From a bacterium (GTDB lineage Bacteria > Krumholzibacteriota > Krumholzibacteriia > LZORAL124-64-63): DNA of 35,455 bases. Of the stretch, positions 7,922-23,234 are shown piece after piece. The notes below the pieces were generated by a model. The model was not told the origin of the DNA. It did not search any database and worked only from the letters and a program-made list of their open reading frames with translations. Every line of letters starts with the position of its first letter. Position 1 is the first letter of the stretch. The stretch spans positions 1-35,455 of the forward strand of contig WJIQ01000064.1 in assembly GCA_014730255.1 (NCBI GenBank). The letters are read 5' to 3'. The translations under genes and the position numbers were made by a program.

Positions 7922-8871
7922 GGCGCAGCATGGGCGTGCCGGTGGCAGCGTGTGCATAGCGTCGTGAGGTTCTCCAGCCGGTTGGATCCTCCTCGGTGCC
8001 GTGGCACGATGTGATGGATCTCGAGAAAGTGCGAATTGCTGCAGCCGGGGGTGGTGCACCGGTACCCGTCGCGGTCGAGGACGCGACCTCGTGTCGAGGG
8101 CGGAATCACGCTGCGATTACGGCCATCCGCACGCCGCCGGACGTGGTCGCACTCCAGCGCATCCGCTGCGGTCGGATCAAGGCGTTTTCCGCGAGCGAAG
8201 ACGACCTCGCAGTCGGGGCATCGGCGGGCAATCACCGTGGCGGCCGGCGCATGCCGGCACTCGACATCCGGGTTTTCTGTAAGCGCCGCGAGGCCCGCGA
8301 GCACGACCTCGGCGCGAGAGGCCGTCGGCGCAACGATACCGGCCTTCTTGACCGCCGTGATCGCGGCATCGAACCGGGCGAGCTGCAGGCCATCGAGCTT
8401 CAGCGCGATCGTCGTCGGGGGGTCCGTGTCGACGGTGGCGCCGCTTCGCCGCCGTTGTCGGGCGGCCATCCGGGCCGCGGCCATCGCCCGCCTCAGTTCC
8501 TCGCGCGGAAGGGCGATCGCTTTCTCGACCCACTCGCGTTCGTTGGCAGGCGTCACCACTCGGGCCACTTCTTGCGCTTTTGTCCAGCCCAGGCGACCCT
8601 CGGTGATCGCGGCCCTGAGGTGAGGCATCCGGCGGAGGTTCCGCGAGAGCGCCAGGAACTGCCGCGTCCGTCCGGTCGAGAAGCCGAGTTCCTCGCGGGC
8701 ATAGATCTCCATGCTGGCATGACCGAACTCGCGGTAGATTCCGCGCTCGAGGGCCTCGGTGAACCACATGGCGGCATTCTGCCGCGCGCGGTCATAGGCG
8801 TCCACGGACGCGCGCAGCGCCTGATCGACCTCGACCGTCGACAGGCCGGGACGAAACTCGGTCGACATCAT
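7918..8871 (-). CDS. HNH endonuclease domain protein
   Basis: A leftward gene of 317 residues. The first ~150 residues are helical and Arg/Ala-rich, resembling the uncharacterised N-terminal part of HNH proteins of the DUF222 type. A CPDC pair (in ARRCPDCEVVF) precedes the C-terminal nuclease core. That core contains CTTPGC, then LEIHHIVPRHRGG, then NLTTLCTRCHRHAH, a full HNH motif with zinc-binding CxxxxC...CxxC cysteines. Two adjacent ATGs (8871 and 8868) are possible starts; a GGAAA lies about 9 nt before the first. The open frame continues further upstream but would run through the divergent uvrD promoter and start, so the longer version is unlikely. Its stop codon and the stop of the preceding gene share the palindrome CTAG, so the two genes converge and overlap by 3 bp. 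Whether it cleaves DNA in a selfish, defensive or repair role cannot be told from the sequence. Confidence 0.85.
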   Translation of the reverse strand: MMSTEFRPGLSTVEVDQALRASVDAYDRARQNAAMWFTEALERGIYREFGHASMEIYAREELGFSTGRTRQFLALSRNLRRMPHLRAAITEGRLGWTKAQEVARVVTPANEREWVEKAIALPREELRRAMAAARMAARQRRRSGATVDTDPPTTIALKLDGLQLARFDAAITAVKKAGIVAPTASRAEVVLAGLAALTENPDVECRHAPAATVIARRCPDCEVVFARGKRLDPTAADALECDHVRRRADGRNRSVIPPSTRGRVLDRDGYRCTTPGCSNSHFLEIHHIVPRHRGGSNRLENLTTLCTRCHRHAHAAP

Positions 8872-8896
8872 GAATCTCGATTTCCGGGAGGGCGTG

Positions 8897-8906
8897 ACCG
8901 ATCGGT
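8897..8906. repeat. 10-bp perfect palindrome in the HNH/uvrD divergent intergenic region
   Basis: ACCGATCGGT is self-complementary and lies 26 nt upstream of the HNH start, between the two divergent genes. A second small inverted repeat (GCAAC-TTG-GTTGC) follows at 8918-8930. Either could be an operator half, but such short palindromes also arise by chance in GC-rich DNA. Confidence 0.3.
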
Positions 8907-8935
8907 ACCCTCGACGAGCAACTTGGTTGCCAGAT

Positions 8936-8963
8936 TTGACACCCGCGCTCACCACTCTATTCT
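8936..8963 (+). promoter_or_regulatory. Likely sigma-70-type promoter of uvrD
   Basis: A perfect TTGACA at 8936-8941, a 16-nt spacer, and TATTCT (4 of 6 consensus bases) at 8958-8963. It lies 32 nt upstream of the uvrD ATG in the only relatively AT-rich patch of this intergenic region. Assigned by eye. Confidence 0.55.
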
Positions 8964-8995
8964 TCCCCGATACCCGAACCCGGAGAAGGACCTCC

Positions 8996-11194
8996 ATGCT
9001 CAGCGCCCTGAACTCCGCCCAGCGCGAGGCCGTCACCGCCCCGGACGGTCCGATCCTCGTCGTGGCCGGTGCCGGCAGCGGCAAGACCCGTGTCCTGACC
9101 ACCCGGATCGCCTGGTTGCTCGAGCAGGGGGTCCACCCCGGCGAGATCCTCGCCTACACGTTTACCAACAAGGCTGCTCGGGAGATGAAGGAACGCGTCG
9201 CCCGTCAGGTGGGTGCGCAGCGAGCGCCGTTCTGGATCGGGACCTTCCACGCCACGGGCGTGCGCATCCTGCGCAGCCACGCCGACCGCCTCGACCTCCC
9301 TCGCGACTTCGCCATCTACGACGCCGATGACCAGAAGCGCCTCCTGAAGGGCGTGCTCCAGGACCTGAAGCTCGATTCCAAGCAATGGGGTATCCCGGCC
9401 AGCCGCGTGGCGATCAGCGCCTGGAAGAACCAGGACGTCGGACCGGAGCAGGCCCTGCGCGAGGCCTCCATGTACGTCGACGAGGTCCACGCCAAGATCT
9501 ACACCGCCTACCAGCAGGCCCTGCGCAAGTGCCAGGCGGTCGATTTCGACGACCTCATCCTCGAGACCGTCCATCTTCTGGAGCAGCACGACGAGGTCCG
9601 CCAGCAGTACGCTGGCAAGTTCCGCCATGTACTGGTCGACGAGTTCCAGGACACGAACGAGTTGCAGTTGCTTCTGATCAAGCTGCTGAGCTGCATCCAT
9701 GGCAACGTCTTCACCGTGGGCGACGACGATCAGTCGATCTACGGCTGGCGCGGCGCGCGGGTGGAGAACATGCTCGAGTTCGACGAATACTTCCCCGGTG
9801 CCCGTACCTTCCGCCTCGAGCAGAACTATCGCTCGAAGGGGCATATCCTGGATGCGGCCAACCACGTCATCGCCCACAACCGCCACCGCAAGGGCAAGAA
9901 CCTCTGGACCGACCAGGGCCTGGGCGAACAGGTGACAGTCGAGCAGCACCTCGACGCCGAGGATGAGGCCGCGCGCGTCGTGGAGATCGTCCAGCAGCAT
10001 CGTCGCGGCGACGTCACCGTGCTCTATCGCACCAACGCTCAGTCTCGACTGCTCGAGGACGCCCTGCGCCGCGCCCGGATCCCGCACCAGGTCGTCGGCA
10101 GCGTCCAGTTCTACGAGCGGCGAGAGATCCGCGACCTGCTGGCCTATCTCAAGCTGGTGGCCAATCCCGCCGACGAGGTCTCCCTGCAGCGCATCATCAA
10201 CCAGCCCAAGCGCAAGATCGGCCAGACCACCGTCGGCCGGCTTATCCAGTGCTCGCGGACGCACGACCTGCCGGTGGGCGACCTCGTCGCCCGTCCCGAT
10301 CTGCTGGCGACGGCCCTCGGCAACGCCGCGGCCAGGCGAGTCGTGGGTTTCCTCAACCGTCTGGCCGACTGGCGCCGTGATGCGGCCGACCGCAAGCCGG
10401 TGCACGAACTCCTGCAGCGCATCGTCGCCGACATCGACTACGAAACCTTCCTGCACCAGGACGAGCCCGACACGGCCGCCGGCCGCATGGAGAACGTCGC
10501 CGAGCTCGTGAGCAGCGCACAGGCGTTCCACGAGGGATCCGACGGCGGCACGCTCGGCCAGTTCCTCGAGCAGACCGCGCTCGTCGCAGATCAGGACACG
10601 ATCCAGGACGGCGACGGCGCCGTCCGGCTGATGACCGTTCACACGGCCAAGGGCCTGGAGTTCCCGGTGACCATCGTGACCGGCTGCGAGGACGAGCTCC
10701 TGCCGCACGTGACCAGCAGCGACACCGAGGCTGGCGTGGAGGAGGAGCGGCGGCTGTTCTACGTGGCCGTCACCCGTGCCAGGGAACGACTCTACCTCCT
10801 GCACGCCTCGCGGCGCCGTCGCTTCGGTAGCTACGAGGACACGCTGCCGTCACGCTTCCTCGGCGAGCTCCCCGAGGATGCGATCGAGCGACGCGAGCTC
10901 GATCACGGGTGGCAGGAACCCGTCGCTCGCTCCCTGTTCGGTGGTCCGCGGAAGGCTCGCGCCCCTCGAGATCTCTACAGCGCCAGCAGTCAGGCGAAGC
11001 GCCACCGCAAGGACGACTGGAACGCGGACGTCGCCCAGTCGGCGCAGCACTACGAGGGGCAACTCGTCAGCCACGCCAGCTTCGGCGCCGGCACCGTAGT
11101 GCGTGTCGAGGGCGACGAGGTGACCGTCGATTTCGGCGAGCACGGCCGCAAGCACATCCTGACCCGATATGCCCATCTGACCCCGCTGGACTGA
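8996..11194 (+). CDS. uvrD: UvrD/PcrA-type superfamily 1 DNA helicase
   Basis: A 732-residue ATP-dependent 3'-5' DNA helicase of the UvrD/Rep/PcrA family. Visible motifs in order: Q-motif LNSAQREAV (residues 5-13), Walker A AGAGSGKTR (24-32), Walker B VDEFQDTN (D215-E216 core), motif III GDDDQSIYGWRGA, motif IV LEQNYRS, motif V TVHTAKGLEFP, and motif VI FYVAVTRARERL. The C-terminus has a Tudor-like tail (VSHASFGAGTVVRVEG...VDFGEHGRKHIL) as in PcrA/UvrD, where it contacts RNA polymerase. The length is normal for the family. The start was chosen because GGAGAAGGA lies just upstream and the Q-motif begins at residue 5; an upstream in-frame ATG at 8870 would include the promoter. The expected role is nucleotide excision or mismatch repair and removal of protein from DNA. 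Confidence 0.95.
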   Translation: MLSALNSAQREAVTAPDGPILVVAGAGSGKTRVLTTRIAWLLEQGVHPGEILAYTFTNKAAREMKERVARQVGAQRAPFWIGTFHATGVRILRSHADRLDLPRDFAIYDADDQKRLLKGVLQDLKLDSKQWGIPASRVAISAWKNQDVGPEQALREASMYVDEVHAKIYTAYQQALRKCQAVDFDDLILETVHLLEQHDEVRQQYAGKFRHVLVDEFQDTNELQLLLIKLLSCIHGNVFTVGDDDQSIYGWRGARVENMLEFDEYFPGARTFRLEQNYRSKGHILDAANHVIAHNRHRKGKNLWTDQGLGEQVTVEQHLDAEDEAARVVEIVQQHRRGDVTVLYRTNAQSRLLEDALRRARIPHQVVGSVQFYERREIRDLLAYLKLVANPADEVSLQRIINQPKRKIGQTTVGRLIQCSRTHDLPVGDLVARPDLLATALGNAAARRVVGFLNRLADWRRDAADRKPVHELLQRIVADIDYETFLHQDEPDTAAGRMENVAELVSSAQAFHEGSDGGTLGQFLEQTALVADQDTIQDGDGAVRLMTVHTAKGLEFPVTIVTGCEDELLPHVTSSDTEAGVEEERRLFYVAVTRARERLYLLHASRRRRFGSYEDTLPSRFLGELPEDAIERRELDHGWQEPVARSLFGGPRKARAPRDLYSASSQAKRHRKDDWNADVAQSAQHYEGQLVSHASFGAGTVVRVEGDEVTVDFGEHGRKHILTRYAHLTPLD

Positions 11195-11204
11195 TTCCTG
11201 CAGC

Positions 11205-11245
11205 GGCTCCCGGTAGACCACCGATGTCATGCAATACCGGGAGCC
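11205..11245 (+). promoter_or_regulatory. Perfect 11-bp hairpin sequestering the Shine-Dalgarno of the M6 protease gene
   Basis: GGCTCCCGGTA (11205-11215) and TACCGGGAGCC (11235-11245) are exact reverse complements separated by a 19-nt loop. The right arm contains GGGAG at 11239-11243, which is spaced 8 nt from the GTG start at 11252 and is the only good ribosome-binding site for that gene. In RNA the whole site would be paired. No T-run follows, so this does not look like an ordinary intrinsic terminator for uvrD. Confidence 0.55.
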
Positions 11246-11251
11246 ACCCAC

Positions 11252-13534
11252 GTGACCCGTGGAATCCTGCGTGCATTTTGCACGCTCGCCCTCGTCTCGA
11301 CCTACCTGATCACCGACGCCGGCGCGGTCAGTCCGCCACGGCCCGGCACCCGGGCCGAACCGCCGGCGGTGCTCGTGACCTGGCCGAGCATCTCGCTGGA
11401 TCGCGCTGCCAAGTCCGGACGGACCGATATCCACGCGCTCGTCCTGCCCGCCGGTTTCGACGATCTGGCCGGCGTGACCTCGATCGCGGCCCTCGAGCCG
11501 GTGTTCACCGGTCCAGGTTCGGTCGCCGATTACTGGGACGAGGTGAGCGACGGGCGGCTGAGCATCACGACCGACATCGCTCCCTGGCAGCGCGTCGAAG
11601 GGTCACGAGACTTCTACGCCGGCGACGACAACGGTCTGGACATGTGGGAAGCCCCGCACAACGCCGGCCGTTTCGTGCTCGACGCCGTGGCCGCTGCCGA
11701 CGACCGCGGACTCGACTGGGGCCGATACGACAACGACGGTCCCGATGGCGTCCCCAACAGCGGTGACGACGACGGTACGGTCGACATGCTGGTCGTCATG
11801 CATGCGGGCCCGGGCGGCGAGTGCGGCACGAGCGACCTCTGGAGTCACCAGTACTTCCTCGCCGGCTGGGGATATGGCCGGTACACGACCAGGACCGCGC
11901 GGCCGGGAGGCGGCTTCGTCGAGGTGGACGACTACGTGCTCGTCCCCGAGCGTTCCTGCGAGACCGGCGTGATCGAGATCGGCGTCATCTGTCATGAGAT
12001 GGGCCACCTGTTCGGTCTGCCCGACCTCTACGATACGCGGCAGGACCGCGCCGGGATCGGCGGGTGGGGCCTCATGGGCACCGGTGCCTGGGGCGGGGAC
12101 GGCCAGCAACCCGCGTCCCCGTCCTGGCCGTGTGCCTGGAGCCGCGCCCAGCTCGGCTGGGCGACCGTGCAGGAGGTGCGTGTCGATGGACCGGTCACCA
12201 TCACCGACGAGGTCCTCTCCGTGCGCGACCCCGACCAGCCGGCCGGCGAGCGATGGTTGATCGAGAACCGCCGGCGCACGGGTTACGACAGCTCGCTACC
12301 GGCGGCCGGATTGCTGATCTGGCACATCGACGACACCGTGATCGACGAGACGCGCCATCTCAACGAGGTCAACGCCGGCGAGATCCTCGGCGTCGCGCTC
12401 GAGGAGGCCGACGGCCGCACGGACCTGGTCTCGATCGGCGGCAACCGCGGCGATGCGAGCGATCCCTGGCCAGGACTGAGCGGCGCCACTCGCTTCTCCG
12501 GCCTGACCGCGCCGTCCAGCGACGCCAATGACGGTGCGGCGACCCGCGTCGCCCTGAGCGATATCCCCCTCGCCGCCGGGAGCATGACGTTCCAGGCTGC
12601 CGTCGGCGTCGACCATCTGGACACGACCCCGCCCGAGATCAGCCTGCTCGCGCCTCTCGGCGGCGAGGAGTGGACCCTCGGCGACGTCCATACCCTCCGC
12701 TGGTCGGCGACCGACGACGAGGCCATGGGCACCGTCGACTTGCATCTCAGCCGCGATGGTGGCCAGACCTGGCCTCGTCGACTCGCCAGCGAACTCGCGG
12801 GCGTCTCGTCGTGGTCCGGAACGCTCACCAGCGAGCCCGGCGATGCGCTGCGGATTCGCATCACTGCCCGCGACGCCGCCGGCAACGCGGCCGCGATCGT
12901 AAGCGAGCCGTTCGCCCTGGTCGACCGTTATGCACCGGCCGTCGAGCTGACCTGGACGCTCGAGCCCGGGGAGAGGCTCTTGCCTGGAGACCGCGTGACC
13001 GTCTCCTGGGCGGCGGCCGACAACGTCGGCATCGCCTCGGTAGACCTCGAGATCAGCTGCGACGATGGGGTGACCTGGGAGGAGACCGGCATCGTCGGGC
13101 AGCCGGCCATCTCGACGATCGCCTGGACGGTGCCCGATCGCTCCTGCCCGATCGCCCACCTGCAGGCCGTGGCGCGGGACGCGGCCGGCAACGTCGCCAC
13201 TGCCCAGAGCGGCGCCTTCGCCATCATGGGCACGACCACCGACGTGCCCGATCCCACGGCCTGGCGCATCGGGCCGTGCGTCCCCAACCCATTCAACCCG
13301 CGCGCGACCATCCACTTCTCCATGCCCGAGGCGGGCCGGGTCCGGCTCACCGTGCACGATCTGCGCGGCCGCCGGGTCGCCAAGCTGGTCGATGGCCACC
13401 GGGGCGCCGGCCCGCACACGGTGCGCTGGGACGGCCGTGACGAACGCGGCCGGACCCTCGCCAGCGGCATCTACTACGTGCGTGCGACCGGCCCGGCGGG
13501 GCGGGCCCTGCTCAAGATCACGCTCGTCCGTTAG
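11252..13534 (+). CDS. Secreted M6-family metalloprotease with Ig-like repeats and FlgD-type sorting domain
   Basis: A 760-residue protein beginning at GTG. A signal peptide covers about residues 1-25. The M6 (immune inhibitor A-like) catalytic domain spans about 40-440 and carries HEMGHLFGLPD at 248-258, matching HExxHxxGxxD zinc ligands, followed by a Met-turn in GGWGLMGTGAWGG. Two Ig-like repeats follow (about 455-555 and 560-665), each with a TPPEI- or APAVEL-type opening, a VxWxAxD strand and a DAAGN phrase. The last ~90 residues (from VPNPFNP to ALLKITLVR) are a FlgD-like/type IX-style C-terminal domain with YDLRGR-like VHDLRGRRV and WDGRDERGRTLASGIYYVR. The role is probably extracellular or surface proteolysis. 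Translation may be controlled by the hairpin just upstream. It converges on the M1 aminopeptidase gene, 7 bp away. Confidence 0.92.
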   Translation: MTRGILRAFCTLALVSTYLITDAGAVSPPRPGTRAEPPAVLVTWPSISLDRAAKSGRTDIHALVLPAGFDDLAGVTSIAALEPVFTGPGSVADYWDEVSDGRLSITTDIAPWQRVEGSRDFYAGDDNGLDMWEAPHNAGRFVLDAVAAADDRGLDWGRYDNDGPDGVPNSGDDDGTVDMLVVMHAGPGGECGTSDLWSHQYFLAGWGYGRYTTRTARPGGGFVEVDDYVLVPERSCETGVIEIGVICHEMGHLFGLPDLYDTRQDRAGIGGWGLMGTGAWGGDGQQPASPSWPCAWSRAQLGWATVQEVRVDGPVTITDEVLSVRDPDQPAGERWLIENRRRTGYDSSLPAAGLLIWHIDDTVIDETRHLNEVNAGEILGVALEEADGRTDLVSIGGNRGDASDPWPGLSGATRFSGLTAPSSDANDGAATRVALSDIPLAAGSMTFQAAVGVDHLDTTPPEISLLAPLGGEEWTLGDVHTLRWSATDDEAMGTVDLHLSRDGGQTWPRRLASELAGVSSWSGTLTSEPGDALRIRITARDAAGNAAAIVSEPFALVDRYAPAVELTWTLEPGERLLPGDRVTVSWAAADNVGIASVDLEISCDDGVTWEETGIVGQPAISTIAWTVPDRSCPIAHLQAVARDAAGNVATAQSGAFAIMGTTTDVPDPTAWRIGPCVPNPFNPRATIHFSMPEAGRVRLTVHDLRGRRVAKLVDGHRGAGPHTVRWDGRDERGRTLASGIYYVRATGPAGRALLKITLVR

Positions 13535-13649
13535 TCCGGAATCACCGCAGGAGAGTCACCTTGCGGACCGTGCGGTCGGTGGGCGTGCGCAGCTCCAGCC
13601 AGTAGACGCCCGAGGCCACGCGGCGCCCCGCCTCGTCACGTCCGTCCCA
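13427..13649. repeat. Inverted near-repeat inside the two tail-to-tail sorting domains
   Basis: Bases 13427-13443 and the reverse complement of 13633-13649 match at 16 of 17 positions. Both encode the WDGRDE core of the FlgD-like C-terminal domain, one in the M6 protease and one in the M1 aminopeptidase on the other strand. This is an inverted repeat of homologous domain sequence, not a mobile element. Confidence 0.5.
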
Positions 13650-22542: not shown

Positions 22543-23169
22543 ATGCGCCTTGTTCTCATCCTCGTGGGCCTCGTCGCCCTCGTCCCCGGCCTGGCCGCGG
22601 CCGAGCTCGTGATCAACGAGCTGCTCGCCGACCCCGCCTACGACTGGAACGGCGACGGCGAGATCGATCCGACCCTCGACGAGTGGGTCGAGGTCTACAA
22701 CCCGGGGCCCGACGCGGTCACCCTGACCGGCTACTGGCTCCGCGACGGCCTCGGCGAGACGCCGCACCTGAACCTCTTCGGCACCCTCGCCGCGGGCGAG
22801 ATCGCCGTCTTCTACGGACACCACGCCGTGGCCTGGCAGGGCGAGAATGGCGGCGGGTCGTCGGGCCTGTCGCTCAACAACGGCGGCGACACGGTCGAGC
22901 TGCTGCGCACCAACGGCGACGACCCCGACCAGCTCGACGTGATCGACACCCACACCTACGAGGACCACACCGCCGACGACGATCGGGCCAGCGGCCGCCT
23001 GCCCGATGGCGGCCAGTGGGGACTGTTCGACGGCCTCAACCCCTACGAGGGCGACCTCGAGCCCCAGGGCACCGGCTGCGAGCCGACGCCCGGCGCGACC
23101 AACGACTGCCCCGGCGGGACGCCGACCGCGGCCGCGAGCTGGAGCACCGTGAAGGCCCCGTTCGACTGA
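22543..23169 (+). CDS. Secreted lamin-tail-domain (LTD) protein
   Basis: A 208-residue protein with a signal peptide (MRLVLILVGLVALVPGLAAA). A single lamin-tail domain (about 21-150) is recognisable from LVINELLADP, an inserted DWNGDGEIDPTLDEWVEVYNPGP, VTLTGYWLRDG and LSLNNGGDTVELLR. The DWNGDGEID stretch resembles a calcium-binding dockerin-like loop. The end (GTGCEPTPGATNDCPGG) has two cysteines that may form a disulfide and is low-complexity after that. Bacterial LTDs are Ig-like folds common on secreted or surface proteins, often with nucleases or adhesins, but here the domain stands alone without a C-terminal sorting domain. Function unknown. The start is supported by AGGAG about 8 nt upstream. 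Confidence 0.85.
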   Translation: MRLVLILVGLVALVPGLAAAELVINELLADPAYDWNGDGEIDPTLDEWVEVYNPGPDAVTLTGYWLRDGLGETPHLNLFGTLAAGEIAVFYGHHAVAWQGENGGGSSGLSLNNGGDTVELLRTNGDDPDQLDVIDTHTYEDHTADDDRASGRLPDGGQWGLFDGLNPYEGDLEPQGTGCEPTPGATNDCPGGTPTAAASWSTVKAPFD

Positions 23170-23211: not shown

Positions 23212-23234
23212 ACGGCCCGGCATCGCCGGGCCGT
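23212..23234 (+). terminator. Strong GC hairpin between the LTD and thiolase genes
   Basis: ACGGCCCGGC and GCCGGGCCGT form a perfect 10-bp stem with a 3-nt loop, 42 nt after the LTD stop and 34 nt before the thiolase start. The following TTCGTCC is not a T-run, so it would be a non-canonical terminator or a leader structure of the thiolase operon. Confidence 0.4.

Follow-up and report, generated by a model that had tools for sequence, protein, structure and literature searches.

A hairpin between uvrD and an M6 protease gene that overlaps the protease Shine-Dalgarno sequence: a candidate gene-end element and passive lock on read-through mRNA

Why does the Shine-Dalgarno (SD) sequence of an M6 protease gene lie within a perfect hairpin that begins just past the stop codon of the gene upstream, uvrD? 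A first-pass annotation of the window (the whole stretch of DNA analysed, 35,455 nt of contig WJIQ01000064.1) took the hairpin for a plausible switch of M6 translation, opened by temperature, a ligand, a small RNA or a protein. We followed up this reading computationally; the features concerned are listed in Table 1.

The uvrD-M6 junction

The uvrD product matched Pfam PF00580 (1.1e-88) and PF13361 (6.8e-73). Its match to NCBIfam pcrA reached 3.7e-230, yet it was under the curated cut-off of that model. The M6 translation carries what we take to be a signal-peptide-like N-terminus and an HEMGH zinc motif. We know of no functional link between the two genes, which are separated by an intergenic gap of 57 nt.

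Table 1. Coordinates of features at the uvrD-M6 junction (positions in the window)
Feature	Position	Strand	Basis or remark
uvrD/pcrA-type DNA helicase gene	8870-11194	+	Longest ORF; true start possibly further downstream
uvrD stop codon TGA	11192-11194	+	
Spacer from uvrD stop to hairpin, 10 nt	11195-11204	+	Direct reading
Left arm, GGCTCCCGGTA	11205-11215	+	Direct reading and fold; no counterpart in 3 genus relatives
Loop, 19 nt	11216-11234	+	Direct reading
Right arm, TACCGGGAGCC, SD inside	11235-11245	+	Direct reading and fold
SD GGGAG in the 3′ arm, 8 nt 5′ of GTG	11239-11243	+	Opening energy 13.5 kcal/mol, rank 1/240
Small second hairpin, CCACG/CGTGG (11248-11252 with 11258-11262), pairs the start-codon G	11248-11262	+	Fold
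Third hairpin, GCGTGCA-TTT-TGCACGC (11269-11275 with 11279-11285), within the 5′ end of the M6 reading frame	11269-11285	+	Fold
M6 family metalloprotease gene, GTG start (11252-11254), C-terminal FlgD_ig domain	11252-13534	+	PF05547 4.8e-24, PF13860 4.3e-10; TIGR03296 6.3e-48, over cut-off

The two 11-nt arms are exact complements, and 6 nt separate the 3′ arm from the M6 GTG. The arms, the 19-nt loop, the GGGAG in the 3′ arm and its distance of 8 nt from the GTG were thus confirmed on the sequence as first annotated. Comparison of the folding energy with that of shuffled sequences, a check proposed at that stage, also came out in favor of the structure: the RNA from 11195 to 11290 folded at -40.9 kcal/mol (z -3.68), and an equally low energy was found in 1 of 200 shuffles. 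Two smaller hairpins that the first-pass annotation does not mention come next in this fold, the nearer one pairing the G of the start codon (Table 1). No T run follows the hairpin. The sequence there is ACCCACGT, and the poly-T tail reported as missing is indeed missing, there being one T in the 8 nt 3′ of the stem. The 41-nt hairpin element is single-copy in its own genome, and no second copy was found with up to three mismatches in four genomes of the genus. A dispersed repeat or operator was ruled out on these grounds.

The position of the SD relative to the gene depends on the M6 start codon. The GTG at 11252 is the earliest ATG, GTG or TTG in the M6 frame past the stop. Two ATG codons within the loop, at 11224 and 11229, resemble the ATG start of the relatives and were considered as alternatives. 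Both are out of frame, and their spacing to a shared R-A-F/I codon (46 or 41 nt, counted by eye) differs from the 51 nt of the relatives; the GTG was therefore retained. The resulting M6 N-terminus (11252-11290) is 11 codons shorter than in three genus relatives (loci L002, L003 and L004), two of which share the residues QKVEW close to the M6 start, with near-identical DNA. At its other end, the M6 gene is convergent with a gene for an M1-family peptidase, 7 nt away (13534-13542), and both products have FlgD_ig at the C-terminus.

Burial of the SD and its state in relatives

SD accessibility was compared across 641 kb of the same genome, comprising the window and 60 further stretches. The 420 genes of this sample, like those behind the gene-end counts below, were called by a simple GC-frame script, which is not a validated annotator; starts were set automatically, except the M6 start, which was set by hand. 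A recognisable SD was present in 240 of the 420 genes, and many genes may thus start translation without one. Among these 240, the cost of opening the SD had a median of 4.4 and a 95th percentile of 8.0 kcal/mol, and the 13.5 kcal/mol of M6 was the highest value. The buried SD of the first-pass annotation is therefore supported in silico, being deeper than that of any other sampled SD-bearing gene. When the local sequence was shuffled with SD and start codon fixed, 13 of 4000 shuffles reached 13.5 kcal/mol, so that ~0.8 such genes would be expected by chance among 240. M6 is extreme in SD burial, yet one such gene per 240 is close to chance. The coverage of the SD by the stem is accordingly less secure than the non-randomness of the stem itself, which is considered below.

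The predicted burial depends on the left arm. For transcripts starting at 11195 or 11205, opening of the SD was predicted to cost 13.4-17.6 kcal/mol; for those starting at 11210, 11216, 11225 or 11235, the predicted cost was 3.0-4.2 kcal/mol.

The junction was then compared in four genomes of the genus, the own genome and three relatives (G001, G002 and G003). The order uvrD then M6 is kept in all four, and GGGAGC is kept 5′ of the M6 start in all three relatives. No counterpart of the left arm was found in G001, G002 or G003, and a search allowing up to three mismatches did not find the dyad in any of them. Opening of the M6 SD was predicted to cost 4.0 kcal/mol in G003, 3.1 in G001 and 4.5 in G002. 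The first-pass annotation had named lack of conservation of the arms as an outcome that would refute the switch, and this is what the relatives present: GGGAG is kept without the arms in 3/3, in each case with an accessible SD (3.1-4.5 kcal/mol). The relatives are distant, however, with an identity of 0.58 at fourfold sites, and the missing arms therefore leave room for a recent role or switch specific to this species. A scan of genome contigs for a closer relative found none, and yielded two distant loci only.

Just 3′ of uvrD, G003 carries a hairpin distinct from that of the window (over 50 nt, z -3.47, with 0 of 300 shuffles as low). A marginal hairpin is present there in G001 (z -1.97 over 60 nt), and the fold test found none in G002. 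In the wider family, folds with z < -2 followed uvrD at 4 of 22 loci, two of them from this genus (own genome included); these 22 remained of 30 loci, the script having failed to locate a usable end of uvrD at the other 8. Conservation of a post-uvrD hairpin across the family was thus not found.

Hairpins at gene ends in the genus

Perfect stems of at least 11 bp with a loop of 3-40 nt are rare in coding sequence (9 in 493.5 kb) and dense at gene ends, with 6 in the 9.9 kb that follow co-directional genes and 7 in the 3.2 kb separating convergent ones; the 9.1 kb between divergent genes had none. Their density at gene ends is ~50-fold that of coding sequence, indicating that the uvrD-M6 stem is above chance for coding-like sequence. 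Fold energies gave a similar distribution. In the own genome, 60-nt folds with z < -2 were found at 31 of 154 3′ ends (the uvrD-M6 hairpin among them); divergent 5′ regions had 2 in 78, and coding controls 12 in 346. The corresponding numbers in G001 were 16/103, 4/48 and 8/214. Convergent junctions were taken on both strands, and the 3′-end counts are to that extent not fully independent.

A perfect stem of at least 9 bp starting no more than 60 nt past the stop codon was present at 63 of 307 3′ ends (own genome and G001). Just one of these 63 hairpins has a T-rich tail (at least 5 T among the 8 nt that follow the stem). Base composition still gives the tails a direction: T accounts for 23% and A for 10% of the tail, vs 10% and 19% of the 5′ flank. 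The tails often read TCGTC or TCGTT, T being commonest at positions 1, 4 and 5 (loci L052-L071 and L098-L157; G000 and G001). The uvrD-M6 hairpin, itself one of the 63, falls within the set in its stem (11 bp) and its start (+11; 8 of the 63 start there or nearer to the stop). Its 19-nt loop is exceeded by 5 of the 63, and 57 have a shorter one; its tail, with one T in 8, is less T-rich than the 23% of the set. The hairpin thus fits the gene-end class in stem and position, and less well in loop and tail.

Stable hairpins without a U tail that lie no more than 50 bp past a stop codon, termed I-shaped, are described in mycobacteria (PMC12288462, excerpt) and more widely (PMC8355165, excerpt), and are proposed there to be intrinsic terminators. 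The uvrD-M6 hairpin resembles them in being stable and GC-rich, in lying within 50 nt of a stop codon and in having no U tail; it differs in that its 3′ arm doubles as the SD of the next gene, its loop is unusually long, and termination is putative here. The first-pass annotation had argued from the missing poly-T tail that the hairpin is no ordinary terminator. This argument fails: with T-rich tails in 1/63, absence of poly-T does not separate the uvrD-M6 hairpin from the gene-end hairpins of this genus, and U-less terminators are described in the excerpts of both papers. Termination by U-less hairpins is disputed. The mycobacterial polymerase reportedly requires a U tract (Czyz et al. 2014, title).

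Readings of the uvrD-M6 hairpin

The most economical account of these findings, which we put forward tentatively, is that the structure belongs to the end of uvrD, as a gene-end hairpin without a U tail, that in this species its 3′ arm happens to overlap the M6 SD, and that it acts as a passive lock on read-through mRNA. It would belong to a set, spread across the genome, of stable and GC-rich hairpins that lack a U tail and lie just past stop codons. Members of this class would presumably terminate transcription or fix mRNA 3′ ends. Across the short 57-nt gap, the 3′ arm would coincide in this species with the ancestral M6 SD. A polymerase reading from uvrD into M6, an event that we infer to occur, would yield mRNA that keeps the M6 ribosome site shut; M6 would therefore be translated poorly from that mRNA, and the lock would lower M6 output. 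The hairpin would be a lock or insulator between neighbours, not a sensor. Consistent with this account, the stem starts at +11, has 11 perfect pairs, has no U tail and lies within 50 nt of the stop codon. The enrichment of hairpins at gene ends, the separate hairpin past uvrD in G003 and the top-ranked cost of opening the SD also speak for it. Against it, the loop and tail are atypical of the 63-hairpin set, and uvrD in the wider family is mostly without such a hairpin (z < -2 at the 4/22 loci noted above). The distance from the stop is a further difficulty. Ribosomes in E. coli repress a terminator almost completely when it lies a few bp from the stop codon, and termination is maximal beyond ~27-30 nt (PMC4824070, excerpt); at 10 nt, the uvrD-M6 hairpin falls in the range of ribosome-repressed terminators. 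Hairpins that hide an SD are known, as are hairpins at gene ends, and the overlap of the two is at most a small variation. A more ambitious version, in which one dual element marks the uvrD mRNA end and also silences read-through M6, so that production of the protease is confined to a shorter transcript or to times of uvrD translation (e.g. when DNA repair is active), appears improbable.

After the gene-end lock, we rank chance next. A functionless mutational accident at a GC-rich junction, either tolerated or merely lowering M6 expression, would agree with the number of shuffles that equal the M6 burial (13/4000, or ~0.8 per 240 genes) and with the non-conservation of the hairpin; the ~50-fold density of stems of at least 11 bp at gene ends places at least the stem in a non-random set, and we consider this explanation rather unlikely. 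At the other end of the ranking is the dedicated M6 switch. A secreted protease is costly, and its SD is the deepest buried of the 240 sampled; however, the arms are missing from three relatives and the element is unique in the genome. The SD was predicted to stay closed from 10 to 85 °C, with a mean unpaired probability of 0.008 at 85 °C, which excludes an RNA thermometer so far as prediction goes and leaves the suggested temperature switch without support. A ligand switch was likewise not borne out: the loop is merely 19 nt, and no Rfam match exceeded its gathering score (one chance-level match, to psbNH, lies outside the hairpin), so that a known RNA family or riboswitch was also rejected. 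The switch reading is weak as a whole, and a dedicated sensor is in our view very improbable.

Two further explanations assume that the SD is opened under particular circumstances, by upstream ribosomes or by a different 5′ end. Under translational coupling, ribosomes ending uvrD would block pairing of the left arm, and M6 would be translated only alongside uvrD. The geometry permits this: the gap is +57 nt, the left arm begins 10 nt past the uvrD stop, and the predicted cost of opening falls from 13.4-17.6 to at most 4.2 kcal/mol when the bases before 11210 are unavailable. The gene order common to 4/4 genus genomes also agrees with it. RBS-covering structures opened by upstream ribosomes are described, and E. 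coli rpmI-rplT is translationally coupled at +52 nt with an inhibitory structure at the downstream RBS (PMC12548453, excerpt). The uvrD-M6 pair is like rpmI-rplT in its gap and in the structure on the downstream RBS; it differs in that coupling rests here on geometry and the arms are not conserved, the relatives having no inhibitory structure. Moreover, the left arm lies wholly outside uvrD, and a ribosome stopped at the uvrD end would probably touch its edge at most. In f1 gene VII/IX, coupling was lost when the stop was shifted far 5′ of the hairpin (PMC12548453, excerpt). The ribosome-repressed terminators of E. coli and the coupling of rpmI-rplT at +52 together suggest that a ribosome ending uvrD could delay the hairpin, and coupling therefore stays a rival, though an unlikely one that ranks below chance. 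Less probable again is a lock with bypass, in which the long uvrD mRNA is closed and translation occurs on a shorter transcript that begins somewhere from 11210 to 11235 and lacks the left arm. T4 gene e operates in this manner: long transcripts leave it silenced, and it is translated well from late ones, in which the 5′ part of the structure is missing (PMC3014915, excerpt). RBS-hiding hairpins are also described in I-TevI and mobE (PMC2988022, excerpt), and the uvrD-M6 hairpin is like all three in being a helix that holds the SD of a gene downstream of transcribed DNA. As in T4 gene e, the SD was predicted here to be paired in the long transcript and unpaired in a short one, for the starts compared above. 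Unlike in T4 gene e, a promoter between the arms was not found, the hairpin is on a host chromosome, and the arms are absent in the relatives examined. A search for sigma-70-like promoters near M6 found none; the promoters of this organism may be of another kind. A hidden promoter in the end of uvrD found no support, since synonymous conservation was not raised there (0.63 over 17 sites vs 0.58 over 272 sites, in three genomes, G002 having been dropped because the script missed its uvrD). Word enrichment in divergent upstream regions gave nothing that could be placed upstream of M6.

If the gene-end lock is real, it would insulate adjacent genes of a GC-rich genome in a compact way. Of more use, as a by-product, is the set of gene-end hairpins lacking a U tail that emerges for this lineage, relevant to the dispute over bacterial termination at hairpins that have no U tract. 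A further gene-end hairpin of this kind was observed in the window at 23212-23234, with a 10-bp stem, a 3-nt loop and the tail TCGTCCGTCG, 43 nt past a stop codon at 23169.
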